Part shown: positions 282 through 13,376 of the stretch, in pieces
How the letters are laid out: each line of letters starts with the position of its first letter
How positions within the stretch are numbered: the first letter of the stretch is position 1
Source: Anaerolineae bacterium
GTDB lineage: Bacteria > Chloroflexota > Anaerolineae > Anaerolineales > Anaerolineaceae
Direction: 5' to 3'
DNA length: 64,000 nt
NCBI GenBank assembly: GCA_013178295.1
Contig: JABLWW010000008.1
Span: forward strand, 1 to 64,000
Translations under genes and position numbers: made by a program
Notes under the pieces: generated by a model
What the model was told of the DNA's origin: nothing
Database searches by the model: none
The model's input: only the letters and a program-made list of their open reading frames with translations

Positions 282-1445
282 ATGAAGATTAAGTTGTATT
301 TGAGTTTGCTGGTCGTTATTATGTTGCTGGGCAGTGTTTTGACTGCCTGCGCTCCGTCTCAACCCCAGACAATCAAGATTGGGCATCTGGTGGCTTTAAC
401 CGGTCCCAGCGCAACCTGGGGACAGTCGGAAGCCAATGCTGTTACGATGGCTGTTGAGAAGATCAACAGCGAGGGCGGAATCAATGGCAAGAAGATAGAA
501 ATCATTGCCTACGATTCCCGCGCCGATAAGTTGGAGGCGGTCAATGTTGTCAAGCGCATGGTTGAGCAGGACAAAGTCGTGGCGATTATTGGCCCCGGAC
601 AGTCCGGCGTTGCCAATGCTGTGCGCGAAGTCAACAACTCTGCCAAAGTGCCCTTGATTGCTACGACTGCCACCAATCCAAAGGTGACTGTGGCGGATGA
701 TGGCTCGGTTGTGCCCTATACCTTCCGTGTCTGCTTTATTGATCCTTTTCAGGGAACGGTGGCTGGACAGTTTGCCATTGCCGATTTGGGCGCCAAGACT
801 GCCGCGATTCTGTATGATGTAGGCGATGAATACTCCCAGTTCCTGGGGCAGTATTTCGTTGAAGCATTTGAAAAGAAGGGCGGCAAGATTGTGGCGAACG
901 AAGCATTCCGCTCTGGCGAGTTGGACTTCCGTGCCCAGTTGGGCAAGATCAAAGATGCCAACCCGGATGTCATCTTCATCCCCACTATGCAGAAAGAAGC
1001 CGCGTTAGCTGCCAAGCAGGCGCGCGACCTTGGCATTACTGCGACGTTGATGGGCGGCGATGGCTGGGGTTCCCCAGACATCTTTGAGCTTTCTGGCGGC
1101 GCAATTGAAGGCGGCTATTTTGTCAATATTACTGCTATGGAAGACCCCGCTATTCAGGGTTTCCTGGCAGATTATCGCGCCAAATACAATGCTGACCCTG
1201 TCATGCCCAATCCTGTGCTTGGCTATGATGCTGCTCTTTGGCTGGCAAATGCCCTCAAATCCACCGGTGGTGAAGGCGGCGAGAAGCTCAAAGCAGCCCT
1301 TGAAGCCACAAAAGATTTGCAGGTGCTGACTGGCAAACTCACCATTGACCCGGCTACGCATAATCCGTTGAACAAACCGGCAGTCATTCAGCAGTGCAAG
1401 GATGGTAAGTTTGTCTATGTCAAGACGTTTGTTACCACAGACTAA
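282..1445 (+). CDS. livK: ABC transporter substrate-binding lipoprotein (LivK-like)
   Basis: Binding component of a branched-chain-amino-acid-type ABC importer (387 aa). A lipoprotein signal peptide ends in the lipobox LTAC, with Cys about residue 23. The mature part is a Leu/Ile/Val-binding-protein type I fold (IKIGHLVALTGPSA near the start, then INGKKIEIIAYDSRAD), typical in length for the family. Start: ATG preceded by an AAAGGAGAG Shine-Dalgarno. It heads the livKH(MG)F operon. The substrate cannot be read from sequence. Because the next operons encode PLP- and cobalamin-type amino acid enzymes, a non-standard amino acid or diamino acid is as likely as Leu/Ile/Val. Confidence 0.9.
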   Translation: MKIKLYLSLLVVIMLLGSVLTACAPSQPQTIKIGHLVALTGPSATWGQSEANAVTMAVEKINSEGGINGKKIEIIAYDSRADKLEAVNVVKRMVEQDKVVAIIGPGQSGVANAVREVNNSAKVPLIATTATNPKVTVADDGSVVPYTFRVCFIDPFQGTVAGQFAIADLGAKTAAILYDVGDEYSQFLGQYFVEAFEKKGGKIVANEAFRSGELDFRAQLGKIKDANPDVIFIPTMQKEAALAAKQARDLGITATLMGGDGWGSPDIFELSGGAIEGGYFVNITAMEDPAIQGFLADYRAKYNADPVMPNPVLGYDAALWLANALKSTGGEGGEKLKAALEATKDLQVLTGKLTIDPATHNPLNKPAVIQQCKDGKFVYVKTFVTTD

Positions 1446-1465
1446 TTTTTAGAGTTGCACGTATG

Positions 1466-1498
1466 AGAGGATCAGGGTTATCTCATCCCTGATCCTCT
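1466..1498 (+). terminator. Hairpin between binding-protein and permease genes
   Basis: A perfect 12-bp stem (AGAGGATCAGGG at 1466-1477 with 1487-1498) and a 9-nt loop sit 20 nt after the livK stop. Only a short T stretch follows, so it is more likely a processing/stabilising or leaky-termination element, giving excess binding protein over permease, than a full terminator. The other two binding-protein genes in the window have the same arrangement. Confidence 0.65.
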
Positions 1499-1573
1499 TT
1501 GGTGTGTACGAATGTCTGAAAAAGGTTTTAACACAGAGTTTATGACATCTGTCATAAATAGATGGAGGTTGCG

Positions 1574-2464
1574 TTGATCTTCCAAACCATTATTACTGGG
1601 CTTTCAATTGGCAGTATCTATGCGCTGATGGCGGTCGGCTATTCGTTGGTGTTTTCAGTGCTTAACTTTTCCAATTTTGCACATGGCGCGGTCATTACAT
1701 TAGGGGCTTACATTGCCTGGGCTTTGATGGTTTCTGTATTCAAAATGTCTTTTTTCCCCGCTTTGCTGTTATCTATGCTTGGTGCTGGTATCATTGCTTT
1801 TTTTGTCGAACGCATTGCGTACAGCACATTGCGGCATCGCCGCGCCCCATCGTTGTTTTTGATGATTAGTGCAATGGGTGTGGCAATCGCTTTGCAGAAT
1901 GTGCTGTATGCGACTGTAGGCGCCAACTTGTATGCCCTCCCACCGATTTTCACTCAGGATACTTTTAGCATTGGTGCCGCGACGATCAGCCGTATGGATA
2001 TTTTTGCCTTTGTCTTTTCGGTCATTGCGATTGCACTATTGACCATTGTGCTCAACTATACTAAAGTGGGTACAGCTATCCGCGCCGCTTCGTATGACTC
2101 TGAGATGGTTTCGGTATTAGGCGTTAACCTTGATGTGCTTGTAGCGGTGCTTTTCTTGCTGGCAGGCAGTTTGGGAGGCATGGCTGGGGTGTTTATGGGG
2201 ATAAAGTATATGGTATACCCCAGCATGGGCTGGATTACCAATAAAGCCTACATTGGCGCGGTGATAGGTGGGCTGGGCAGTCTGCCAGGTGCGATTGTGG
2301 GCGGTATTCTGCTGGGTTTGCTTGAATCCCTTGTCTCGGTAACAGTGATTGGCTCAGTGCACCTTTCCACTTTTCGTGATGTGTTTAGCTTTGGTATCCT
2401 GGTTTTGTTGCTTGTCTTTCGCCCCACGGGTCTGTTCGGTCGCCACGTGGAAGAGAAACTCTAG
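1574..2464 (+). CDS. livH: Branched-chain amino acid ABC transporter permease LivH
   Basis: Inner-membrane permease of the Liv-type importer, about 296 aa and polytopic. It has the LivH hallmark near the N-terminus (GLSIGSIYALMAVGYSLVFS) and a GALIGGLGSLPGA-like EAA region near the C-terminus (AVIGGLGSLPGAIVGGI). Start choice: an ATG at 1562 has no ribosome-binding site, while TTG at 1574 is preceded by GGAGG (1564-1568) at a 5-nt spacing and gives the usual short N-terminus (MIFQTIITGLSIG). The upstream ATG is therefore probably part of the ribosome-binding region. The next gene follows after 12 nt. Confidence 0.9.
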   Translation: MIFQTIITGLSIGSIYALMAVGYSLVFSVLNFSNFAHGAVITLGAYIAWALMVSVFKMSFFPALLLSMLGAGIIAFFVERIAYSTLRHRRAPSLFLMISAMGVAIALQNVLYATVGANLYALPPIFTQDTFSIGAATISRMDIFAFVFSVIAIALLTIVLNYTKVGTAIRAASYDSEMVSVLGVNLDVLVAVLFLLAGSLGGMAGVFMGIKYMVYPSMGWITNKAYIGAVIGGLGSLPGAIVGGILLGLLESLVSVTVIGSVHLSTFRDVFSFGILVLLLVFRPTGLFGRHVEEKL

Positions 2465-2476
2465 GAGGCTGTTGAC

Positions 2477-4438
2477 ATGCAATACGCACAAGCAATCTTT
2501 ACCAATGCTGCAATTTATGTCATTGCCGCCTTGGGGCTGGCGATTTTTACGGGTCACACAGGCTTATTCAGTCTTGGACATGCCGCTTTTATGGCTGTTG
2601 GGGGCTACGCGGCTGCTATCCTGACGTACTTTTTGGGCTGGTCGCTCATCCCTGCACTAGCGGTGGGTGTGGTGGCGGCTGTGCTGGTAAGTTTGGTGAT
2701 TGGTTATCCGACACTGCGCGCCAAACTGCGTTCGGACTATTTTGCTATTGCCACGCTGGGTTTTGGCGAGGCTGTGAAAGTGCTCTTGGAGAACCTGCAA
2801 CTCACGCAGGCTTCGCGCGGTTTGCCTGGTATTGAAAAGCTGGCTGGCCCTCTCAATACGGCGGTGTTTCTGATAATTACGGTTGTTCTATGTCGTAATT
2901 TTCTTAACAGCACATACGGACGCAAAATCATTGCCATTGGGCAAGACCCCGTCGCAGCTGAGATGATCGGCATTAAGCTGCTTCCCAACCAAGTGCTTTC
3001 GCTGGCAATCAGCGCAGCATTTTCAGGGCTTTCGGGAGGTCTATTAGCCCATTACATCACCTTTATTCAGCCCGCCATTTTCAGCATGGATCTCTCAAGT
3101 TTGCTGACAGCTGGCGTTGTGGCGGGTGGTATGGGTAGCCTGACGGGTCCCATTGTGGCAATTGCCTTATTTATTGTCATTCCTGAATTGTTCCGTGGGC
3201 TAGCATTGTGGCGTTTGGTACTTTATGGTGTGGTTCTGGTGATCATTATCAACTTTCGCCCTAAAGGGCTTTTTGGTTACGAAGAGTTGAATTTTGATAA
3301 TTTGCCCAAGCTGTTCACAATTATTGGTTTAACCATTGGTTTGACCATTGCTGCCAGTCTGGCGAAAATGTTCTCTGCTACGTTAGGAAGAGTCCCGGCC
3401 ATTTTGATTGCAGCGCTGGTTGCTTTGGCGCTAACCGTTGCTTTAGGCTATTTGGGAAAACTGCTTGCCAAATGGCTACGATCGCCTTTTGGCAGTTTCG
3501 GGCAGATGTTGGGGAGCGGTTACAACCATATCGTACAGACTTTGCAGGATAAGGCGGTGTGTTTCCGTAACCGCGATTTGCCCAAATTGAGAGAACTGAT
3601 GAACATGGTAGTTGAACCGTCGCGGATGGTCTCCGCTCAAAACTCACGCAAAGAGCCCGTGCTGAGCATCAAAAGTCTAAGCAAACGTTTTGGCGGCGTG
3701 GTGGCGGTGGATGAATTTGATTTGGATGTTTATGAGGGTGAACTGGTTGGGTTGATTGGGCCAAACGGCTCGGGGAAAACCACAGTATTTAACCTCATTA
3801 GCGGTTACTATCCTGTAAGCGGCGGCACAATTACTTACCGCGGAGAGGATCTGACCAAAAAAGCTCCCACAGCAATTGTTTTGGGCGGTATTTCGCGTAC
3901 GTTTCAGAACATTCGTCTGTTTTCAAGTATGACGGTGCTGCAAAATGTCACCACAGCTCTGCATGATGCCAGCAACTACAGCTTACTTGAGGCTTTTGTG
4001 CAATGGCCGTGGACAGTGCGCGCAACGGAAGAGCGGTTGAAAGAAACGGCGATGGAGCTGCTGAAACTGGTCGAGCTAGAAGAGTATGCTGACCGGGTTG
4101 CCAATACGCTCCCCTATGGTTTACAGCGTAAGCTGGAAATTGCCCGCGCGCTGGCGCTGCGCCCCAGACTTTTGATGTTGGATGAGCCTGCGGCAGGTAT
4201 GAACCCTCAGGAATCTCAAGAGTTGGTCGAGTTGATACGCCGCATCCATGTCGCAAAGGACTTAACCATTCTGTTGATTGAGCATCACATGGATGTGGTG
4301 ATGAATCTATGTCAGCGCATTGCGGTCATTAATTTTGGCAAGAAGATTGCAGAGGGCGCTCCAGAACAGATTCAAAACGACCCGCTGGTTTTGGAGGCTT
4401 ATCTGGGAGAGAAGGTGGAAGATGTTGTTGCGAGTTGA
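2477..4438 (+). CDS. Fused LivM permease - LivG ATPase
   Basis: A single 653-aa ORF joins two usually separate Liv subunits. Residues 1 to about 275 are a LivM-like permease (GHTGLFSLGHAAFMAVGGYAA; GGMGSLTGPIVA; INFRPKGLFG). Residues about 275-340 add two more hydrophobic segments and a basic linker. Residues about 392-653 are a LivG-type ATPase with Walker A GPNGSGKTT, an atypical signature (LPYGLQRKLE in place of YGQQRRLE), Walker B LLMLDEPAAGM and the switch His (LLIEHHMDVV). AGGAGG precedes the ATG. The last 17 nt overlap livF. There is no stop or frameshift sign between the halves, so the fusion looks real. Confidence 0.9.
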   Translation: MQYAQAIFTNAAIYVIAALGLAIFTGHTGLFSLGHAAFMAVGGYAAAILTYFLGWSLIPALAVGVVAAVLVSLVIGYPTLRAKLRSDYFAIATLGFGEAVKVLLENLQLTQASRGLPGIEKLAGPLNTAVFLIITVVLCRNFLNSTYGRKIIAIGQDPVAAEMIGIKLLPNQVLSLAISAAFSGLSGGLLAHYITFIQPAIFSMDLSSLLTAGVVAGGMGSLTGPIVAIALFIVIPELFRGLALWRLVLYGVVLVIIINFRPKGLFGYEELNFDNLPKLFTIIGLTIGLTIAASLAKMFSATLGRVPAILIAALVALALTVALGYLGKLLAKWLRSPFGSFGQMLGSGYNHIVQTLQDKAVCFRNRDLPKLRELMNMVVEPSRMVSAQNSRKEPVLSIKSLSKRFGGVVAVDEFDLDVYEGELVGLIGPNGSGKTTVFNLISGYYPVSGGTITYRGEDLTKKAPTAIVLGGISRTFQNIRLFSSMTVLQNVTTALHDASNYSLLEAFVQWPWTVRATEERLKETAMELLKLVELEEYADRVANTLPYGLQRKLEIARALALRPRLLMLDEPAAGMNPQESQELVELIRRIHVAKDLTILLIEHHMDVVMNLCQRIAVINFGKKIAEGAPEQIQNDPLVLEAYLGEKVEDVVAS

Positions 4439-5171
4439 AGATTTAAATGTATACTATGGCGAAGCTGTGCATGCGCTGCGCAACGTCAGCTTTGAAGTGC
4501 AAGAAGGGGAGATTTTGTCAATTATCGGCGCAAACGGCGCAGGCAAGTCGACGCTGATGTGGACGCTGATTGGGCAATTGAAGCCGCGCTCCGGAAAAAT
4601 CACTTTTCGCGGCGAGGTCATGAAGCCCGTGCCTCATGCAGTTGTATCGGCCGGAATGGCGCTGGTGCCTGAGCGCCGCCGTTTGTTTCCCAATCTGACG
4701 GTGCGCGAAAATCTGATGATGGGCGCTTATTTGCGCGGTGATCGCGGTGCTGTTCAAAAAGATCTTGAATATATCTTCTCGCTCTTTCCTATTTTGAAGG
4801 AAAGACTCAACCAGTATGCCGGTACGCTTTCGGGTGGTCAGCAGCAGATGGTGGCGACCGCGCGTGGTTTGATGTCTCGTCCCAAGCTGCTCCTGATGGA
4901 CGAACCTTCGCTGGGCTTGGCACCCATTTTGGTAAATCAGATTTTTGAAACAATACAAGAGATTTCGCGGCAGGGAACAACCATTTTGTTAGTGGAGCAG
5001 AATGCAAAGAAGTCTCTTGCCATTGCTCACCGCGCTTATGTGCTTGAGGTTGGCTGTATCGTGCGTACTGGTACTGGTCAGGAGCTGTTGAATGACCCGG
5101 CGGTGCAGGCAGCTTATCTGGGTGTGAGCCAGCATAAAGAAGTGATTTTGGAGGGTAAAGAACCATGTTAA
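4422..5171 (+). CDS. livF: Branched-chain amino acid ABC transporter ATPase LivF
   Basis: Second ATPase of the Liv importer, 249 aa, the usual size. It has Walker A GANGAGKST, signature LSGGQQQM, Walker B LLLMDEPSLGLAP and the D-loop/H-loop LVEQNAKKSL. The start is taken at ATG 4422, which gives the normal LivF N-terminus (MLLRVEDLNVYYG). A longer frame runs back into livM-livG but has no homology there. It overlaps the fusion gene by 17 nt and the next gene by 7 nt, so translation is probably coupled. Confidence 0.92.
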   Translation: MLLRVEDLNVYYGEAVHALRNVSFEVQEGEILSIIGANGAGKSTLMWTLIGQLKPRSGKITFRGEVMKPVPHAVVSAGMALVPERRRLFPNLTVRENLMMGAYLRGDRGAVQKDLEYIFSLFPILKERLNQYAGTLSGGQQQMVATARGLMSRPKLLLMDEPSLGLAPILVNQIFETIQEISRQGTTILLVEQNAKKSLAIAHRAYVLEVGCIVRTGTGQELLNDPAVQAAYLGVSQHKEVILEGKEPC

Positions 5172-6142
5172 CGGAGCATTTACCCCGTGTGCCATTGGGT
5201 TTTTTCCCGACTCCTATTCATGAATTGCCGCGCCTGAGCAAGTTGTTGGGCGGCCCGCGTTTGTTGATTAAGCGCGATGATCAGACCGGGTTGGCAACTG
5301 GCGGCAATAAGACCCGTAAACTGGAGTTTAGCGTGGCGGAGGCGTTGCGGCAGGGGGCAGATACACTAATTACTTTAGGGGCGGTGCAGTCGAATCATTG
5401 CCGCCAAACGGCTGCCGCTGCTGCCCGCTATGGGTTGCGTTGTATTATAGTGATACGCGGACATGCACCTTCGCTGATAACGGGCAACTTGCTCCTGGAC
5501 TATTTGCTGGGGGCAGAAGTGGTCTTTGCTGGTGATGCCACGCGTGAAGAGGTGGCGGAAAGAGTAGTCGAAGAGCAGCGCGCGGCTGGCCATCATCCGT
5601 TTTTTATCCCTCTGGGCGCTTCTGATGCGGTGGGCGCGGTTGGCTTTGTCGCGGCAATGGAAGAGCTGGCATCTCAGATAGAGGAACAAAAGCTCAGAAT
5701 TGATCGCATCGTTTTAGGTAGCAGTTCTGCCGGTACCCAGGCAGGGATGTGTGTAGGTGCAAAAGCTCTTGGCATTCCTGCACAGATCGCTGCGATTGCC
5801 ATTGATAGCACCCAAGCTGAGCTTCAGGAGGAGGTTGCTCAGATAGCAAATGCCACAATCGCCCGTTTGGGCATAGAAATGACCTTTTCGCCGCAGGAAG
5901 TAGTCGTTTTTGATGGCTATTTGGGCGGCGGGTACTCTATTATGGGAGAGCCGGAACGCGAAGCGATCACATTGTTAGCCCGCCATGAGGGCATTTTGCT
6001 TGATCCAGTTTATACTGGGCGTGCGATGGCTGGCTTAATTGATCTCATTCGCAAAGGAGAGTTTGGCAGTTCAGAGACGATACTCTTCTGGCATACAGGT
6101 GGGGCAGCCGCGCTGTATGCGTATGCGGGTCAATTGCTTTAA
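5165..6142 (+). CDS. D-cysteine desulfhydrase / ACC-deaminase family PLP enzyme
   Basis: Fold-type-II PLP enzyme, 325 aa, resembling DcyD and L-cysteate sulfo-lyase. Lys49 in the GGNKTRKLEF motif is the expected Schiff-base lysine. GAVQSNHCRQTAA and the C-terminal LDPVYTGRAMAGLIDL and LFWHTGGAAAL motifs are also family hallmarks. These enzymes beta-eliminate or deaminate small, often D- or sulfonated, amino acids. The ATG overlaps the livF stop, so it is the last gene of the transporter operon and probably acts on the imported compound or an early intermediate. The exact substrate is not deducible. Confidence 0.85.
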   Translation: MLTEHLPRVPLGFFPTPIHELPRLSKLLGGPRLLIKRDDQTGLATGGNKTRKLEFSVAEALRQGADTLITLGAVQSNHCRQTAAAAARYGLRCIIVIRGHAPSLITGNLLLDYLLGAEVVFAGDATREEVAERVVEEQRAAGHHPFFIPLGASDAVGAVGFVAAMEELASQIEEQKLRIDRIVLGSSSAGTQAGMCVGAKALGIPAQIAAIAIDSTQAELQEEVAQIANATIARLGIEMTFSPQEVVVFDGYLGGGYSIMGEPEREAITLLARHEGILLDPVYTGRAMAGLIDLIRKGEFGSSETILFWHTGGAAALYAYAGQLL

Positions 6143-6314: not shown

Positions 6315-7013
6315 ATGGTAGCTTCCCTTTCTCCAATTTCGACCCCGGTTTCGCGTGAGCAACAAGCCTATGAGCGCATTAAAGAAGCGATACTTACTTT
6401 CAGACTGAAGCCTGGTCAGAGCCTGGTGGAGAATGAACTTGCGGGTCAGTTAGGCATCAGTAAAACGCCAGTGCGAGATGCCTTGCTACGCCTGGAGAGA
6501 GAGGGGCTGGTCAATCGAGCCTTATATAAAGGGGCATCTGTGGCGGAATTGAACCAGCGGAAAATGGAAGAGATTTTTGAGATTCGCGCTGCACTGGAGG
6601 GGCTGGCAGTCTATCTAGCAACACCCCTAATCACAGCAGAAGAAACAAAAGAAGCCCAGAAATTGATTGATGCCCAGGCTGCTGCGCTGGCAGCCGGTGA
6701 TGTACGTGAAGCCTCGCGGGTTAATCGGCTGTTTCACGAGCTGGTTATTTGCAAAACTCCCAATCAGTGGTTAAAAGATATTCTGGCTAATTTGGAAGAT
6801 CATTTGCGGCGTTATCGCATGATATCCAGCTTCCAGGGGGATCGGATGGATAAATCCATCAAGGAGCATCAGCTTGTTCTGGATGCCATACGGCGCGGCG
6901 ACGCGGAGGGCGCTGAGAAAGCTATGCGTGAACATTTGATGAGTGTGTTGAACGACCTGGTTCAATTGCATGACTTTGATGAAATTATCAAACGCATTGC
7001 CGAAGAGGGGTGA
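6315..7013 (+). CDS. GntR family transcriptional regulator (FCD/FadR type)
   Basis: A 232-aa repressor-type regulator. An N-terminal winged helix-turn-helix (residues about 14-80, AYERIKEAILTFRLKPGQSL, then LGISKTPVRDALLRLEREGL) is followed by a helical FCD ligand domain (about 90-220) with family acid and His residues (EIRAALEG, FHELV, EHQLVLDAI). It sits between the transporter operon and the PLP/aminomutase operon, each of which has its own promoter, so it is the likely local regulator of both. A TATGAT box occurs upstream around 6231, but no convincing -35 was found. Confidence 0.88.
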   Translation: MVASLSPISTPVSREQQAYERIKEAILTFRLKPGQSLVENELAGQLGISKTPVRDALLRLEREGLVNRALYKGASVAELNQRKMEEIFEIRAALEGLAVYLATPLITAEETKEAQKLIDAQAAALAAGDVREASRVNRLFHELVICKTPNQWLKDILANLEDHLRRYRMISSFQGDRMDKSIKEHQLVLDAIRRGDAEGAEKAMREHLMSVLNDLVQLHDFDEIIKRIAEEG

Positions 7014-7259: not shown

Positions 7260-8729
7260 ATGCCCAACAAATTCAAGTTTAAATACCAGTTGTATAAACA
7301 TCTTCAGGCGAATGCTCAGGCAATCTATGCCGAAGTGCGTCAGATTGCTGAGGATATTGGAATTACGGGGGATTTGAAAGGTAACCTGGGGCTCACAGGG
7401 GCTGTTTCGGGCTGTCATGGCTTATTAACGCGTGAAGTAGAAGAAGCGATGCGGGATGTCTCTCGTAAGGTCATTCATGGGATGACGCTGGATGAGAAAG
7501 TGCGCGAAATTGTCAAGGAATATTATGGCGATGAATATGATGCGGCTTTAACCAATACTTGCGAAGCCGCTTTGCACATTTGTTACGAAACGCTGTGCAT
7601 GCCGCCTTCCACTGGGCGGGGTGATCGCTATCGCGGGCGTTATATTGCCCCCTATGAGCGCCACATGCATCATCAGGGCGGTTATGGCCGTCCCTTCCCA
7701 CCGCGCTATAAGGAAGTCAATGCTGAACGGGGTGAAGCAGCGGGTGAGTATGGCGTGCAGGGGAAAAGAGTGGATAACCTGGATACCATTTTTGTCAAAC
7801 CGGTGGGCGCCACCTATGACTGTCATGGAATTAAGTACAACCCTATTCCCAATATGCTGCACGTGGATAGCAAGAAAACCGTTGCATATATGGCGGAGGT
7901 GGCTGCCCGTCACGCTGATACACTGGTCGGTTTTGCTTCTCTCGGATATGACACGCCCGGCTATGGGTATGGTGAGAAAGATCGCGAGGGGACGCCGCTG
8001 TTGCAGACAGGCATGGCAAAGCTGGCGGCTACGTATGATGTCCCCTATATCGTGGACAATGCCTGGGGCGTACCGTTTATTGGGGCGGATATTCGCAAAC
8101 TGGGGTGTGATGTCATCATGTACTCGATGGATAAAGCTTCTGGAGCACCAACCTCAGGGTTGATTATTGGGAAAGAAGAGGCGATGGTGCTGGTGCGTCG
8201 GGGTCTGGGTATCCACGGAGCGCGCTATGGCACCCTTGCATCGCATGGAAAGGCAGCCTATGTGGGTTATGATCCTGGCAAGGAAGCGCTGGCGGGCGCC
8301 ATTGCGGCAATGAAGATTTTGAAAGACCGTCCGCAGATTGCCCTGTCAGCCCTGGACGATTTGTATAAGATTGTGATGGAAGAGTTCGAAGCCATGCCTA
8401 AAGCACTCAAAAACGGGTGGTCTATTTACAAATCGGTCAACTGTCTGGCAGTGGAATTGAACTATGCAGATAGCTGGAAAAATGGGGAAATGGGGCTGCC
8501 TATTTTCTCCATTGAGGATATGTACGCTGGAAGTAATATTATACAGAACTGCATGTCCCAGATGGGTATGGTGCCGACCATCGGTTATGACGCCAATATC
8601 ATGGTTTCAAATGGCGTTGGCAATCTAGATGACGAGGGGCGTTTGTTGGAAAGACCGACCCGCCTGGCTGTGCGTGCCATGTTTAAATCACTTGAAGTCA
8701 TTGCTCGCTATGCCGGGTTGCTAGGGTGA
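7260..8729 (+). CDS. PLP-dependent enzyme, fold type I, unknown substrate
   Basis: 489 aa, no exact family recognised. The layout is that of an aspartate-aminotransferase-fold enzyme. A Gly/Cys/His-rich N-terminal stretch (GLTGAVSGCHGLL) is followed by a cofactor-pocket-like PYIVDNAWGVPF with its Asp, and the candidate Schiff-base lysine Lys292 in SMDKASGAPTSG. Unusual is a Tyr/Arg/His-rich insert around residues 118-150 (RGRYIAPYERHMHHQGGYGRP). It is the first gene of the operon that continues into the aminomutase-like genes, so it probably acts upstream or downstream of that step on an amino acid. It could be a lyase, an aminotransferase or a racemase; I cannot choose. Confidence 0.7.
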   Translation: MPNKFKFKYQLYKHLQANAQAIYAEVRQIAEDIGITGDLKGNLGLTGAVSGCHGLLTREVEEAMRDVSRKVIHGMTLDEKVREIVKEYYGDEYDAALTNTCEAALHICYETLCMPPSTGRGDRYRGRYIAPYERHMHHQGGYGRPFPPRYKEVNAERGEAAGEYGVQGKRVDNLDTIFVKPVGATYDCHGIKYNPIPNMLHVDSKKTVAYMAEVAARHADTLVGFASLGYDTPGYGYGEKDREGTPLLQTGMAKLAATYDVPYIVDNAWGVPFIGADIRKLGCDVIMYSMDKASGAPTSGLIIGKEEAMVLVRRGLGIHGARYGTLASHGKAAYVGYDPGKEALAGAIAAMKILKDRPQIALSALDDLYKIVMEEFEAMPKALKNGWSIYKSVNCLAVELNYADSWKNGEMGLPIFSIEDMYAGSNIIQNCMSQMGMVPTIGYDANIMVSNGVGNLDDEGRLLERPTRLAVRAMFKSLEVIARYAGLLG

Positions 8730-8829: not shown

Positions 8830-9069
8830 ATGATGCAAAAAGCTCTTGATCGTGTGGTTGATGCGCTGGATGTTGAGACCTTTCTCTACGCTGCGGATGA
8901 GGAAGAAGCTAGGTCTCTGGCGGAACAGCTGGCAGCGGAGCTTAACTTGCCACATGGGGACGTTGTTTTCTTGGAGTACAAGGGCTTTGGCGCCAGAGTG
9001 CGTATTCGCAGTTATATCCATCACCCTGGCGACCGCTATCGCTGGCTTGAGAGGGGTTCTTCCAAATGA
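8830..9069 (+). CDS. Small protein resembling the dimerisation domain of B12 aminomutases
   Basis: 79 aa. The segment around DALDVETFLYAADEEEARSL and the following LPHGDVVFLEY...GARVRIRSYI resembles, by my memory of the sequences, the alpha/beta dimerisation domain that precedes the Rossmann B12 domain in lysine 5,6-aminomutase beta subunit and in OraE. Here it is a free-standing protein. Its stop overlaps the start of the 612-aa gene (ATGA), which implies coupled translation and roughly equal amounts, as expected of two parts of one enzyme. The ATG is at 8830 after ATAGAGGATAGCC. The family call is by pattern only. Confidence 0.6.
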   Translation: MMQKALDRVVDALDVETFLYAADEEEARSLAEQLAAELNLPHGDVVFLEYKGFGARVRIRSYIHHPGDRYRWLERGSSK

Positions 9070-10904
9070 AAAAAGTTCTTCTTGCTCCTCTTGACCCTGT
9101 TCATGATAATGCTGTCAAACTGCTCAAACGCAAGTTGAGTGAAGCCGGTTATGATGCCATTGCCATGCGCCCCGGCACCACCAGCGAAGAGGTGATTGAG
9201 AAAGCGCTAGAGGAACGCCCGATTGCCATCCTCGTCAGCCGCACGCTGGGTTATAAGGTTGCTGAGACGCTGGGGCGGCTGGTTGACCTGGCAGAAGCTT
9301 CTGGTTTGCGTGAGATGACCCGCTTAGGTGTAGGGGGAATGGCGATTACCAAAGAGACCGGCGGCGAGCTGGGTTTTGATGCTTGTTTTACTGGCGAGCT
9401 AAATATGACGGAGGTGCTTGCCTTTCTGGAAGGAAAACCGGTTGGTCTGCAAACTGCAGGAAACGCAGTTGCCGAAAGGCAAAAGCCGAATATTGTGCAG
9501 GGTTTCACCTATGCATTTAAGGATAAAGAAATCGAAACTTTACTGGATGGCATTGTTGACCAGATTTTGGAGTGGGTGAAGGGAAAGACCTCGCCTGGTA
9601 TCGAAAGAGCAAAGCTGCGTGCCGAGATGCTGGCAGAGGGCATTTCACTGCGCAGCCCGGCAAAGGTCTCTTTGACGCAGCAGCGCTTGCGCGAGCAGTA
9701 TCTTGCGCTTTGTGATGATACCATCCGGGCTTTTTACCTGACAGATAAACTGCCCGCCGGGGTGCGCTGGCTTGCCGCCGCTGAAATTGAGGCAATGGAG
9801 AATCTTCTTGGCTCTGCTAAGGCGCGCTACAGCCCACTCCGTCATGTGGGCGAAAAGCCCCTCTTTTTCTCTCAATATGGCACAGGCTGCCCGGTGATGG
9901 ATGTTATGCACATCAAGGTAGCTGAAGCATGGGGGGTAGATGGGGTTTTGCACTTTGATCCTTCCTGGGGCGCACAATGCGAGGGTTTGTTGGAGGGGTA
10001 TCTCTCGCATGAGCACGACGGCACAATCCTGACCCTGGAAAACCTCAAGTTTATCCGTCATGCGCAGGAGCCAGCCACACTTTGGAATGTGCGCGGGCAT
10101 CGCGGGTTGAACACGCCGGAAACGCAGGTGCTGGGCCATGCTGCCGGAGCAGACCTTTTTAAGATTAATATTCCTTATGGCAGCACGGCGGGGGGCACTG
10201 ACCCGCAACGGCTGACGGTGGATGGTGTCTATTCGCTGCGTTTGGCGGCTGAGTATGGCATCCCGTTTGATATTCCCGGCAATGATGAGTTGAGCGGGGT
10301 GCCGCCTTTTAAGACTTTTGCTGGTATTTTGATCATGGTGGCGCTGGGTTTGAAGCTCGGCGCAAAGCCCATTCCTAAACCCCTGTTGTGCTACTCGCCC
10401 TATATGACCATTTATGGCAGGATGGATGACAACATGATTGACATGAATATTGCCAAGCTGATGGTGTGGCGGGAGATTGTGGACGCGCCTGTCTGGCCCG
10501 GAGAGCCAGTTGGTTTTATGACGCATTCACCCGAACGGGTGCAGTCTTCCATGATGACCGCTGTGCATGCTGCGCTGGCGAGCAGTATGGGGGTTGATGC
10601 AGTAACAATCGCCTCTTCAGACGAAGCTTACTCAAAGGGGCCTATTTCGGCTGCGGCGCGGGTGGATACACTGCGTGCTGTCAGGGATGCTTTGCGCTTT
10701 CAGGGAAGCGTCCAATTGACACCCACTCCACGAGCGTTGACGCTGGCAGATGAAATCCACGATGGGATATGTGAGGTACTAAAAACCGTTGCCGAACGTG
10801 GGGATTTTGTTGCTTCGATTTGCGAAGGGCTGCTGGGCAATGAGGAAGATGGGTTGTATCCTGGGCGGATAGGTGCAGGTACAGTATCAGGTGGGCGCTT
10901 GTGA
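9066..10904 (+). CDS. Cobalamin/PLP aminomutase-like protein, B12 domain fused before the barrel
   Basis: 612 aa. Residues 1 to about 130 resemble the Rossmann B12 domain of KamE/OraE: a degenerate DxHxxG (LDPVHDNA, His13 kept, the last Gly replaced by Ala), IAILVSRT, LVDLAEASGLRE and LGVGGMAIT. Residues about 240-612 resemble the OraE TIM barrel, including the end LYPGRIGAGTVSGG, close to the YPERNGDG...IGAGTV region of OraE. The order B12-barrel is the reverse of OraE (barrel-dimer-B12). The PLP lysine, 11 residues after the His in OraE and KamE, has only near matches here (Lys21, Lys23). Likely role: adenosylcobalamin- and PLP-dependent 1,2-amino shift on a diamino acid. Substrate unknown. 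Confidence 0.7.
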   Translation: MKKVLLAPLDPVHDNAVKLLKRKLSEAGYDAIAMRPGTTSEEVIEKALEERPIAILVSRTLGYKVAETLGRLVDLAEASGLREMTRLGVGGMAITKETGGELGFDACFTGELNMTEVLAFLEGKPVGLQTAGNAVAERQKPNIVQGFTYAFKDKEIETLLDGIVDQILEWVKGKTSPGIERAKLRAEMLAEGISLRSPAKVSLTQQRLREQYLALCDDTIRAFYLTDKLPAGVRWLAAAEIEAMENLLGSAKARYSPLRHVGEKPLFFSQYGTGCPVMDVMHIKVAEAWGVDGVLHFDPSWGAQCEGLLEGYLSHEHDGTILTLENLKFIRHAQEPATLWNVRGHRGLNTPETQVLGHAAGADLFKINIPYGSTAGGTDPQRLTVDGVYSLRLAAEYGIPFDIPGNDELSGVPPFKTFAGILIMVALGLKLGAKPIPKPLLCYSPYMTIYGRMDDNMIDMNIAKLMVWREIVDAPVWPGEPVGFMTHSPERVQSSMMTAVHAALASSMGVDAVTIASSDEAYSKGPISAAARVDTLRAVRDALRFQGSVQLTPTPRALTLADEIHDGICEVLKTVAERGDFVASICEGLLGNEEDGLYPGRIGAGTVSGGRL

Positions 10905-11992
10905 AAACGGTCGGATTTGCAGGTACGGCAAAAAACACCGGGAAGACAACCACCGCCCTGCATGTCCTTCAGGCTGGCAAAGAGGCTGGGCTGCGTTTGG
11001 CGCTGACCAGCATCGGGTATGATGGCGAGAACCGCGACAATGTGACTGGTCTGCCCAAGCCGCGCTATACCCTGCAACCCGGGATGTTGGTGGCTACTGG
11101 ATCAACCTGTCTGCGTTCGAGCACTGCAATTGTTCGGGCTATTGAGGAAACCCCCATTCACACCATTTTTGGACAGGTTGTGGTGGGAGAAGTAACGTAT
11201 CCCGGCACAGTTTTGCTGGCAGGCCCTAACCGCAGTTCGGACCTGCAACATGTCTTTGATATCTTTACCTCGTTGGGATGCAATCTTGCCCTGGTGGATG
11301 GGGCGCTAAACCGCCTGGTGCCAATGACGTGTGTAGATGGGCTGGTGCTGTCCACCGGGGCGGCGTTTGATCAGCGCATATCTCATGTGGTTGAACACGC
11401 TGGCGCCTTGCTGCGCCTGTTGCGTATGCCAGTTATCCGAGATGAGGTGCCTGTTAATAGCGGGCTGTGGGTGGAGTTTAAAGATCAGACATCATGTGTT
11501 TTAGGGTATGGGTCTCTGATCGGAAAAAACCTGCTCGATACCCTTTTGCGCACCCTGATTGCACCTGTCAAGAAAATTTATATTCCCGGTGCCTGCGATC
11601 CGCATCTTTTGAAGCTGTTGATTGACCAAAAAGCAGATTTGTTGCGCGGTGCGCTGATGCTGTTTCGCAGTCCCCTGCATCTGGTTGCCAGTGGCGACCC
11701 GTTGCTCTGGAAGGAGATATTCCCTTTGCTTGAGGCCACAGATATTCAGCCGAGCAGTTTGCAAACCCCACAGGTTTTTTTTATGACAGTAAACCCGTTT
11801 TACCCGCGCTATCTTGATCGAAACGGGATGTATGAGGCGGCTTATGTGGATAAACGGGAACTGCTCGCGGCTGCGTGCAACCGCATTTCTGAAATCCCAG
11901 TTCTAGATATTTTTCAGCCGCCATTTCCGGATGTTATTTCCTTGATCAATTATTTTGCGGAGTTGCCAGATGTCACCAGATCCTTATGTTGA
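10901..11992 (+). CDS. P-loop protein, possible aminomutase reactivase
   Basis: 363 aa, GTG start inside the preceding stop (GTGA overlap). The N-terminus carries a Walker A loop (GTAKNTGKTTTALHVL, residues about 8-23), and ALVDGALNRLVPM looks like a Walker-B/switch region. Glutamate, ornithine and lysine aminomutases usually travel with ATPases that exchange inactivated cobalamin. Position directly behind the aminomutase gene suggests that role, similar to the KamB-type reactivase subunit of lysine fermenters. The assignment rests on context, the P-loop and size. A cobalamin or amino acid kinase is not excluded. Confidence 0.6.
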   Translation: MKTVGFAGTAKNTGKTTTALHVLQAGKEAGLRLALTSIGYDGENRDNVTGLPKPRYTLQPGMLVATGSTCLRSSTAIVRAIEETPIHTIFGQVVVGEVTYPGTVLLAGPNRSSDLQHVFDIFTSLGCNLALVDGALNRLVPMTCVDGLVLSTGAAFDQRISHVVEHAGALLRLLRMPVIRDEVPVNSGLWVEFKDQTSCVLGYGSLIGKNLLDTLLRTLIAPVKKIYIPGACDPHLLKLLIDQKADLLRGALMLFRSPLHLVASGDPLLWKEIFPLLEATDIQPSSLQTPQVFFMTVNPFYPRYLDRNGMYEAAYVDKRELLAAACNRISEIPVLDIFQPPFPDVISLINYFAELPDVTRSLC

Positions 11993-12437
11993 TAAGCTGC
12001 TGGATCAGGATTTGCCCTGCAAGGATAAATTGCCTGTCAGGGCAAAGGTCAGTTGTGTGCTGCATGCCAGGTCGGCTGCGCGCGGCTTGGAGCTGTGCCC
12101 TTTTCCTTCGCGTGCAGTGCTCAAGCACGAAATCCATGAACTAATTTTGACCACCGAGGATGCTGCACCTGGGAAGACAGTTAATAACATCTCGTATCTG
12201 TGTTTTTTTGAGCTTTTGCAAAGCGGGATGCTTTGGGTGGGAGATCGGGTTGAGGTAAATGGCAAATTGATCGGTTATCTGGCGGGGTACGATTTTTCGC
12301 ACCTGCCGAATCACATGAATATGATTGTCCAGGTAAAAGGTGACCTGCGCACTGGCTATGAATTGGGTCTGAAGCCCGATGATGAAATTGTCTTTGTCTT
12401 TGTGCATGGAAAAAGGAACTGGCAGACTATTATTTAA
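11970..12437 (+). CDS. Hypothetical protein of the aminomutase operon
   Basis: 155 aa, family not recognised. Start taken at ATG 11970 (MSPDPYVDKLLDQ), which has GGAG at 11959-11962. A TTG 15 nt earlier is open but less likely. It overlaps the end of the P-loop gene by 23 nt. The protein is soluble, with a conserved-looking centre (TVNNISYLCFFELLQSGML, then GDRVEVNGKLIGYLAGYDFS) and a hydrophobic beta-rich C-terminus. There is no signal peptide. Its embedded position suggests an accessory or second reactivase subunit, or a small-molecule-binding factor for the pathway; this is inference only. Confidence 0.6.
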   Translation: MSPDPYVDKLLDQDLPCKDKLPVRAKVSCVLHARSAARGLELCPFPSRAVLKHEIHELILTTEDAAPGKTVNNISYLCFFELLQSGMLWVGDRVEVNGKLIGYLAGYDFSHLPNHMNMIVQVKGDLRTGYELGLKPDDEIVFVFVHGKRNWQTII

Positions 12438-12461: not shown

Positions 12462-13376
12462 ATGTACCAAAAGAAATTAAAGGTGGTTGTTATAGGATAT
12501 GGGCATATTGGGTCTTTTGCTGCCCGTGCGGTTTTGCTGGCGCCCGACATGGAGCTTTGCGGTGTGGTTGCAACCCCACGTAGCCTGGAGAAGGTTCGCC
12601 AGGCGTTGCCGCAGGTGCCGGTAACTACCGATGTGTTTGCCTTGCCCGAAAAACCCGAGGCGGCTATTCTTGCCGTACCGACCCGCACGGTTGAGGAATT
12701 GGCGCCGAAGCTTCTAGAAGCAGGCATTCATACAGTGGACTGCTTTGATATGCACGGTGACCCATTCCTTCATTTGCGTGAAAGCCTGCAAGCTGCAGCG
12801 GTCAAGGGCAAGGTAGCGGCGATTATGGGGAGCGGTGTTGATCCTGGCGTCAGCACCATTGTACGTGCGTTGTTTGAGATTTGGGCACCGACGGGAATGA
12901 GCTATGTCAGCTATGGACCAGGCATGAGCATGGGGCACACGGTGGCGGCGAAGTCCTATGATGGAGTTAAAGATGCACTTTCCATCACGCGTCCCGGTGA
13001 CCCTGGCTGCCATAAGCGCGATCTGTACCTCGTGCTACAGCCAGGCGCTGATAGGGCGGCGGTTAAGTCGGCGATTCTGGCAGACCCATATTTTTCGCAT
13101 GATGATGTGCGCGTCTTTTTTGTGGATGATGTAACCCCAATGGTAGATATGGGACACCGTATCCATATCTTCCGTAAAGGCGGGTCAAGCGGGGTGGATA
13201 ATCAGATTTTAACATTTGAGACCACGTTTCACAATCCGGCTTCGACTGCTCAGGTGATGGCGGCATCGGCGCGCGCCTGCACGCGGCTTGCACCTGGAGC
13301 ATATACGATGTTTGAGGTGCCTCCCATTGCCTTTCTCGCTGGCGATACAGAAACCTTGATAAAGCGGATCGCTTAA
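12462..13376 (+). CDS. meso-diaminopimelate dehydrogenase-like amino acid dehydrogenase
   Basis: 304 aa NAD(P)-dependent oxidoreductase. An N-terminal Rossmann fold (VVIGYGHIGSFAARA) is followed by the Ddh core: TVDCFDMHGDP, GSGVDPGVS (the family has GWDPG, so Trp is Val), YGPGMSMGHTVAAK (compare WGxGxSQGHSDA), HKRDLYLVL and the C-terminal ARACTRLAPGAYTMFEVPP. Length and motif order match Corynebacterium Ddh. The position of a substrate-binding His in Ddh appears to be Asn here (GVDNQILTF). I infer an altered substrate, probably the diamino acid made by the aminomutase, as 2,4-diaminopentanoate dehydrogenase does in ornithine fermentation. AAGGAGG precedes the ATG. Confidence 0.75.
   Translation: MYQKKLKVVVIGYGHIGSFAARAVLLAPDMELCGVVATPRSLEKVRQALPQVPVTTDVFALPEKPEAAILAVPTRTVEELAPKLLEAGIHTVDCFDMHGDPFLHLRESLQAAAVKGKVAAIMGSGVDPGVSTIVRALFEIWAPTGMSYVSYGPGMSMGHTVAAKSYDGVKDALSITRPGDPGCHKRDLYLVLQPGADRAAVKSAILADPYFSHDDVRVFFVDDVTPMVDMGHRIHIFRKGGSSGVDNQILTFETTFHNPASTAQVMAASARACTRLAPGAYTMFEVPPIAFLAGDTETLIKRIA

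Follow-up and report, generated by a model that had tools for sequence, protein, structure and literature searches.

A conserved gene pair from Anaerolineae encodes a rearranged relative of the B12-dependent aminomutases in which the canonical PLP site is not recognisable from alignments

Lysine 5,6-aminomutase (LAM; KamD and KamE) and D-ornithine 4,5-aminomutase (OAM; OraS and OraE) use B12 and pyridoxal 5'-phosphate (PLP) together, and both are treated in PMC3958899, PMC4256349 and PMC9081730. PLP is described as lying in the barrel and as tied in both enzymes to a lysine of the Rossmann domain (PMC3958899, PMC4256349), which is released when the substrate arrives; in LAM, Arg184, Arg268 and Ser189 hold the PLP phosphate, while Ser238 contacts the ring nitrogen and Asn299 the phenolic oxygen, with Tyr263 in a stacking position (PMC3958899). 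KamE joins a dimerisation domain to the Rossmann domain, with KamD as a separate chain, while OraE runs from barrel through dimerisation domain to Rossmann domain, with OraS separate. Here we describe a pair of genes encoding proteins of 79 and 612 amino acids (aa) with the four domain types of KamDE (1XRS, 8T0V, 9Q1A) and OraSE (3KOW, 3KP0, 3KP1), namely the Rossmann domain, an OraS-like N-terminal helix, a triosephosphate isomerase (TIM) barrel and the dimerisation domain, in another arrangement. The pair lies in a stretch of 64,000 nucleotides, called the window below, which covers positions 1 to 64,000 of contig JABLWW010000008.1 from an Anaerolineae bacterium (assembly GCA_013178295.1). 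No description of this enzyme was found in the titles and abstract openings of the literature searched, a coverage with most subscription journals outside it.

Both open reading frames (ORFs) and their coupling were confirmed as an earlier note on this DNA had given them, the stop of the 79-aa ORF and the start of the 612-aa ORF sharing the bases ATGA at 9066-9069 of the + strand. The strings quoted there, LDPVHDNA with His13, LVDLAEASGLRE, and IGAGTVSGG near the C-terminal end, were all found in the 612-aa protein. The pair and its parts are laid out as follows.

8830-9069, + strand: 79-aa stand-alone dimerisation-domain (OAM_dimer-like) subunit, beta-alpha-beta-beta (predicted fold, profile, Pfam)
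9066-10904, + strand: 612-aa putative catalytic subunit, B12 Rossmann domain, OraS-like helix and KamD-like TIM barrel (AlphaFold2 (AF2) model, VIA fold comparison)
9066-9440, + strand: residues 1-125, putative cobalamin-binding Rossmann domain with predicted cobalt ligand His13, S58 and G90-G91 (PF02310, hhalign, VIA)
9513-9635, + strand: residues 150-190 (approximately), helix like OraS and the KamD N terminus, KTSPGIERAKLR (hhalign, PF16552)
9828-10715, + strand: residues 255-550, TIM barrel with the basic, family-specific active-site candidates D298, R343, H345, R346, K366 and Y371 (hhalign, conservation, site mapping)
10161-10163, + strand: codon of Lys366, candidate new PLP or substrate lysine (invariant in 77/77 sequences; the DSSP strand 364-366 ends there)

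Besides its own genome, the 612-aa protein was found at full length and 69-72% identity in 7 of 60 genomes of relatives, these seven being from the same family, giving 8 carriers among 61 genomes. A species-wide collection yielded 84 confirmed loci, and the 80 best were retained; the seven relatives are among these records, which means that the two sets are not separate. The hosts are Chloroflexota (including Levilinea saccharolytica and metagenome-assembled genomes of Anaerolineaceae), Bacillota (Tepidanaerobacter, Thermovorax, Sporomusa, Lucifera, Fermentithermobacillaceae and one Paenibacillus), Verrucomicrobia and a few others. Identity to the window protein was 46-72% in the best segment, and the match spans almost the entire length in all but L100, which is partial, and L095 (Sporomusa ovata, 10001-11807), where the length of the match is not a multiple of three and the frame is broken or misassembled. 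Because the collection was scanned with the seeds APLDPVHD and ELGFD[AG][CT]F, the invariance of these strings there is partly built in; the eight genomes found without seeds carry the same His motif. Viral contigs gave no match to the system, and among 251 genomes sampled evenly across the phylum only the own genome matched at E 1e-25 behind a loose first filter, with no other known carrier among the sampled genomes listed.

The small gene stands directly upstream of the mutase gene in all seven relatives and in 79 of the 80 collection loci, of which tblastn at E 1e-4 detects 78 and L078 adds a tail at the contig edge; L069 is the sole locus of the 80 in which it was not found. With start codons assigned by rule, the two genes overlap by no more than 25 bases or are separated by no more than 60 in 70 of the 75 loci that were measured; 22 of the 75 show an overlap of exactly 4 bases. 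This recurrent position marks the two proteins as one conserved unit. We conclude that the system is real and conserved, and that there is a real chance that it performs new chemistry.

Conservation was read from an alignment of the 612-aa protein with 77 rows, the window and 76 of the 80 loci (L023, a near relative of L021, L074, whose match runs past its stop, L095 and L100 were left out), and from a 79-aa alignment of 72 rows, the window and 71 of the 80 (without L023, L042, L044, L065, L069, L072, L078, L084 and L094). The sets for comparison held 5 KamD, 5 KamE, 5 OraE (two nearly identical), 3 OraS, 6 GlmE (L136 shorter) and 7 B12+MutE-like sequences (L012 read in the wrong frame). Pfam was searched with 24,736 models and members were counted at E<=1; column-shuffle controls cover four profile pairs.

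A separate dimerisation-like module, as the earlier note had proposed, is supported from several sides. OAM_dimer (PF16554) was the commonest Pfam hit, in 31 of 72 members with a best E of 8.7e-5, the window member being without a match. In hhalign, the 79-aa profile matched the dimerisation domains of OraE (E 5.5e-5) and KamE (1.1e-4), and 0 of 40 column shuffles reached either score. The AF2 model (predicted local distance difference test, pLDDT, 88.8) forms a beta-alpha-beta-beta unit; its six best VIA rows are KamE and OraE at Z 6.3-7.0 (3kp1_A 500-587 at 7.0, KamE 9q1a_B at 6.8), followed by a Thermus protein and dodecins at Z 5.2 and below, and its six best Foldseek matches are again KamE and OraE chains (best E 0.012). 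Some results weigh against this assignment: VIA Z stays below 8, no Foldseek match falls below 0.001, and a PDB search with the 79-aa profile returned 19 chance-like hits with neither KamE nor OraE among them. Taken together, the Pfam, shuffle-tested profile and fold matches and the constant position next to the mutase gene make it most likely that the 79-aa protein is a detached relative of the aminomutase dimerisation domain. In its alignment Lys reaches at most about 44% of rows in any column.

The AF2 model of the 612-aa protein, built from the 77-row alignment, has a mean pLDDT of 89.8 and a predicted template modelling score (pTM) of 0.86. Its Rossmann domain superposes on 1y80 with a VIA Z of 19.3 and matches the KamE profile at 99.5% and the OraE profile at 98.7% in hhalign. 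PF02310 matched 77/77 members, the window protein scoring 25.2 bits, under the Pfam cut-off of 32.1; the KamE model NF052385 likewise matched 77/77, with the best E-value of the model list, although the window protein, at 40.7 bits, does not reach the cut-off of 280 for this NCBIfam equivalog. The base-off/His-on cobalamin motif is DxHxxG-SxL-GG. His13 and GG are conserved in 77/77 members and S in 62/77, whereas the motif Asp stands at H-3 rather than H-2 (DxxH instead of DxH), a departure that counts against the reading preferred below. The loss of one Gly from DxHxxG, which the earlier note had wanted explained, is true of the window protein, where Ala takes its place, and does not hold as a family trait: the position is Gly in 66/77 and Ala in 11/77, namely in all 10 rows from Chloroflexota and in L083, from Candidatus Adiutrix.

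A further complication is that the Rossmann domain also matches corrinoid models of methyltransferases (MtgC in 69/77, pyl_corrinoid in 63/77), as it would if the 612-aa protein were a corrinoid-dependent methyl-transfer protein instead of a mutase. We consider this very improbable, since the KamE model matches every member and has the best E-value of the list, the barrel, the OraS-like helix, the dimerisation domain and the KamB-like neighbour all indicate aminomutases, and the selected annotated neighbour clusters, a part of all neighbours, include no methyltransferase or corrinoid reductive activator.

Residues ~150-190 match OraS in hhalign (82%, E 1.1e-5; 0 of 40 shuffles reach the score). 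Residues 152-612 superpose on KamD 8t0v_A with a VIA Z of 34.5 and a root-mean-square deviation of 2.9 over 388 residues, and Z of the 612-aa model is lower to glutamate mutase E (27.6) and OraE (27.2); in profile comparison the barrel matches KamD at E 1.1e-6, OraE at 4e-4 and GlmE at 0.11, and the KamD score was reached neither by reversed targets nor by any of 20 column shuffles. After PF02310, the Pfam models matching most members are Lys-AminoMut_A (10/77, best E 0.0016) and OAM_alpha (PF16552; 9/77, best E 0.011), matches that are weak one by one and telling as a set; PF06368 (GlmE) matched 2/77 with a best E of 0.001. Against Pfam and NCBIfam the single window proteins gave no barrel match and no 79-aa match. 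The PDB search with the 612-aa profile, which was convincing for Rossmann domains only and lacked KamD among its 32 hits (E<=10), speaks against the kinship of the barrel. Overall, the HMM-HMM (hidden Markov model) comparison that the earlier note had named as a check places the Rossmann domain, the OraS-like helix, the barrel and the 79-aa domain with KamDE/OraSE profiles. The B12 domain that the earlier note had placed N-terminal to a barrel stands by profile and fold; the barrel is nearer to KamD than to OraE by both VIA and hhalign, and the domain order given in the note lacked the OraS-like helix that sits between the two.

How deep this kinship lies can be gauged from the described enzymes, in which the Rossmann domains of KamE and OraE match at E 2.4e-33 and the barrels of KamD and OraE at 7.5e-34. 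Compared with the 1.1e-6 between the 612-aa barrel and KamD, the latter value places the 612-aa protein on a third deep branch outside the KamD+OraE pair. With the dimerisation domain apart and Rossmann domain, OraS-like helix and barrel fused in this order, the arrangement is unlike KamDE or OraSE, and the new architectural class proposed in the earlier note is a reasonable description; the new substrate that it also proposed is conjectural. KamDE remains the closer relative, with a KamB-like gene adjacent to the pair here. Glutamate mutase (GlmES; 1CB7, 6H9E) shares the fold of the adenosylcobalamin (AdoCbl) barrel, at the Z and without the profile match given above. It is not known to use PLP or to carry the dimerisation domain or the OraS-like helix, and it has another reactivating partner. 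A family of 541-549 aa B12+MutE-like proteins in the same bacterial order (L009, L010, L013, L015, L017 and L018) likewise carries a B12 domain on the N-terminal side of a barrel in one chain, and its Rossmann domain matches at 96.8%, whereas its barrel has no profile match to the 612-aa barrel (0.1%) and is placed weakly with MutE by Pfam. In L126 (3248-5851), a single open frame of 867 aa covers both OraS and OraE, so that the two ornithine aminomutase subunits appear to be naturally fused.

The PLP site differs from that of both aminomutases. R184, S189, S238, Y263 and R268 are identical in the 5 KamD and 5 OraE sequences. When 21 of the 77 members were aligned with them, three MAFFT modes agreed in pairing R184 with D298, S189 with A303, S238 with R346 and R268 with Gly or Ala376, so that four PLP side-chain contacts of KamD are replaced; D298, R346 and Y371 are invariant over the 77 members. 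The N299 position is uninformative: its counterpart in the members is Asp/Glu407, and the OraE set has Ala there. The Rossmann position of the PLP lysine (His+11; Lys144 of LAM) is Leu in 76/77 members and Met in one, as against Lys in 5/5 KamE controls, and compared with OraE, other residues stand at the position of Lys629 and at most positions of the pocket. Because domain order, PLP lysine and PLP pocket all depart from those of the described enzymes, we place the 79+612 enzyme outside both the lysine 5,6- and the ornithine 4,5-aminomutases, although it should act in the manner of an AdoCbl mutase of the KamD/OraE type. Judged from these alignments, the canonical PLP site of KamD/OraE is not recognisable in the 612-aa protein, and PLP would be either unused or bound anew. 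Three points count against a loss of PLP: the stacking Tyr is retained (Y263 as Y371), the sole survivor of the five KamD pocket side chains; the invariant Lys366, with which a barrel strand ends, would suit a PLP that has changed its place; and the missing contacts were deduced from alignments in which identity is only 13-21%.

The earlier note had instead assumed that the PLP lysine is shifted to Lys21/23, so that the protein would be a canonical PLP aminomutase whose lysine has taken another place on the Rossmann helix. Both lysines are present in the window protein; position 21 is K in 37/77 members and position 23 in 24/77, and most barrel PLP contacts are absent. As Lys21 and Lys23 are not conserved, we reject this shift and give the canonical version next to no credence. 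The lysines conserved in at least 95% of members are 18, 366, 416 and 464, and the invariant one in the Rossmann domain is K18. It stands at His+5, where methylmalonyl-CoA mutase-type domains have a lysine, and its role is probably structural.

If PLP is bound anew, Lys366 is the candidate. The protein would then be a PLP- and AdoCbl-dependent aminomutase with the PLP Schiff base on barrel Lys366, Arg346 at the pyridine nitrogen and the phosphate on the Gly-rich GGTDPER loop, a fold-type-III-like geometry in a KamD barrel. Lys366, Arg346, Tyr371, Gly377, Pro380 and Arg382 are each conserved in 77/77 members, Lys366 terminates a barrel strand in the predicted model, and the overall kinship is to PLP aminomutases, all of which favours such a site. 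All three phosphate-holding side chains of KamD/OraE are lost, one of them aligning with the invariant Asp, and both characterised enzymes have the PLP lysine in the Rossmann domain and not in the barrel (PMC3958899, PMC4256349). On balance we regard PLP on Lys366 as possible though rather unlikely.

The reading that we prefer, and hold to be moderately probable, is that the 79+612 pair acts as a radical isomerase dependent on AdoCbl and represents a third deep branch of the aminomutases, with a rebuilt basic active site and no canonical PLP site. The 79-aa chain would be the dimerisation piece of the complex, and AdoCbl would by homology be bound base-off on His13 of the N-terminal Rossmann domain of the 612-aa chain. 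This domain may close over its own TIM barrel, where Co-C homolysis would give the 5'-deoxyadenosyl radical; the radical would abstract hydrogen from the barrel-held substrate and so start a 1,2-rearrangement. The substrate, probably an amino acid or a derivative, could be held directly by R343, H345, R346, K366 and Y371, a basic pocket in place of the PLP pocket of KamD/OraE. Since the lysine lock of the Rossmann domain is absent, the open state would have to be kept safe otherwise, perhaps, we speculate, by the 79-aa subunit or by substrate-induced closure. The adjacent KamB-like ATPase would exchange damaged cobalamin, and the product may enter a catabolic module with a fold-type-I PLP enzyme, a DUF6917 protein and an amine-oxidising enzyme. 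The wider proposition, of a widespread AdoCbl radical isomerase on the aminomutase scaffold, either PLP-free or with PLP on a barrel lysine, that lacks the PLP-lysine tether and opens an undescribed amino-acid catabolic pathway with the fold-I PLP enzyme and DUF6917, seems to us evenly poised. If true, the PLP cofactor and the lysine lock of LAM and OAM would be separable additions to, or losses from, the fold, and a natural third branch without the Rossmann lysine or most PLP contacts makes the origin of the lock and the need for it testable.

The genes around the pair, which bear on this proposed pathway, are these.

7260-8729, + strand: 489-aa fold-type-I PLP enzyme (SelA/DgaE-like), putative module partner (profile; co-occurrence)
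10901-11992, + strand: 363-aa KamB-like putative reactivase, a P-loop ATPase (NF052386 profile)
11955-12437, + strand: DUF6917 protein, putative module partner (PF21891, E 1.3e-39)
12462-13376, + strand: diaminopimelate (DAP)-dehydrogenase-like amino-acid dehydrogenase (TIGR01921, 208 bits, cut-off 180.6)
6315-7013, + strand: GntR/FCD regulator, probable module regulator (homologue in 9/10 Chloroflexota loci)
282-5171, + strand: Liv-type amino-acid ATP-binding cassette (ABC) transporter (LivK, LivH, fused LivM-LivG, LivF), possible uptake system (all below curated cut-offs)

The 612-aa and 363-aa ORFs overlap by GTGA. Among the 61 related genomes, the 489-aa PLP enzyme is present in exactly the 8 with the mutase (one of these, G006, has a second copy on another contig), DUF6917 in 7, all of them carriers, the KamB-like protein in the 8 and one other, and the DAP-dehydrogenase-like protein in 7 of the 8 and one other. 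The extra KamB-like protein, a stronger match in a genome without the mutase, is presumably the canonical KamB, and the extra DAP-dehydrogenase-like protein, also a stronger match, presumably the canonical one. Because the 61 genomes are related, these co-occurrences are not independent events. Across the collection, the PLP enzyme was found beside the mutase in 63, KamB in 55 and DUF6917 in 51 of the 80 loci, counts that are lower bounds since the loci differ in length. Module genes lie near the mutase in Bacillota too, and likewise in Verrucomicrobia, there without KamB: no KamB-like match was seen nearby in the Verrucomicrobia loci, and these bacteria must reactivate the enzyme otherwise or from elsewhere in the genome. 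The DAP-dehydrogenase-like gene is present in 7/10 Chloroflexota loci; in the remaining 60 loci, which belong to neither Chloroflexota nor Verrucomicrobia/UBP4 and are mostly from Bacillota, a RidA-like gene was found in 32, a flavin adenine dinucleotide (FAD)-oxidoreductase in 34 and GntR in 46. That the pair recurs across groups mostly with the KamB-like protein, the fold-I PLP enzyme and DUF6917 suggests that these genes form one catabolic module. The name DUF6917 (PF21891) was not found in the literature searched, and the tight co-occurrence with two uncharacterised proteins would mark a probably unknown catabolic route in anaerobes and Verrucomicrobia.

With regard to reactivation, the KamB-like protein of the window reaches 190 bits against NF052386, below the cut-off of 210, which weakens the assignment; its homologues in L033 and L055 reach 247 and 218. 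The own genome contains no KamE over cut-off, no OraE-sized match to the KamE model and no PF09043 match, and the KamB-like ATPase therefore most simply serves the 79+612 enzyme. In 30 genomes with the system, KamE over cut-off was found in 6, an OraE-sized KamE-model match in 9, five of which were read, and one or both in 11; the system thus cannot be regarded as a mere replacement of the described aminomutases.

A DAP or lysine substrate is hinted at by the DAP-dehydrogenase-like gene of the Chloroflexota and by lysA, which lies beside the mutase in 5/10 Verrucomicrobia/UBP4 loci. Among genomes of the latter group, 8 were checked, including 5 that have the lysA neighbourhood; all contain exactly one lysA over cut-off, so that lysA is probably a housekeeping gene. 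The FAD oxidoreductase was also considered as a strict replacement for the DAP-dehydrogenase-like enzyme; no collection locus has both genes, and genome G026, that of locus L025, has both in different places, so that strict replacement does not follow. There the DAP-dehydrogenase-like gene is found next to that of the PLP enzyme (C18:439513-441998), about 320 kb away from the mutase. On paper, a product going towards 2-oxobutyrate/propionyl-CoA, with 2,4-diaminobutyrate or a glutamate-type substrate, would fit the prp genes and AceE-like E1 of some loci and the RidA-like genes of the Bacillota-rich set. One locus (L086, 848-12105) hints at a propionyl-CoA outlet, as it runs from prpB-prpC-prpD and an AceE-like E1 through the 489-aa PLP enzyme and the mutase pair to lysA; the AceE-like E1 also lies upstream of the module in L081 and L085, where the L085 contig ends.

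Two further genes upstream of the module in the window were noted. A PLP protein like D-cysteate sulfo-lyase or 1-aminocyclopropane-1-carboxylate (ACC) deaminase (5165-6142; 379 bits against the CuyA model, cut-off 450) has a homologue in only 1 of the 80 loci. A single 653-aa frame at 2477-4438 holds both the LivM-like and the LivG-like parts of the branched-chain amino-acid type ABC transporter.

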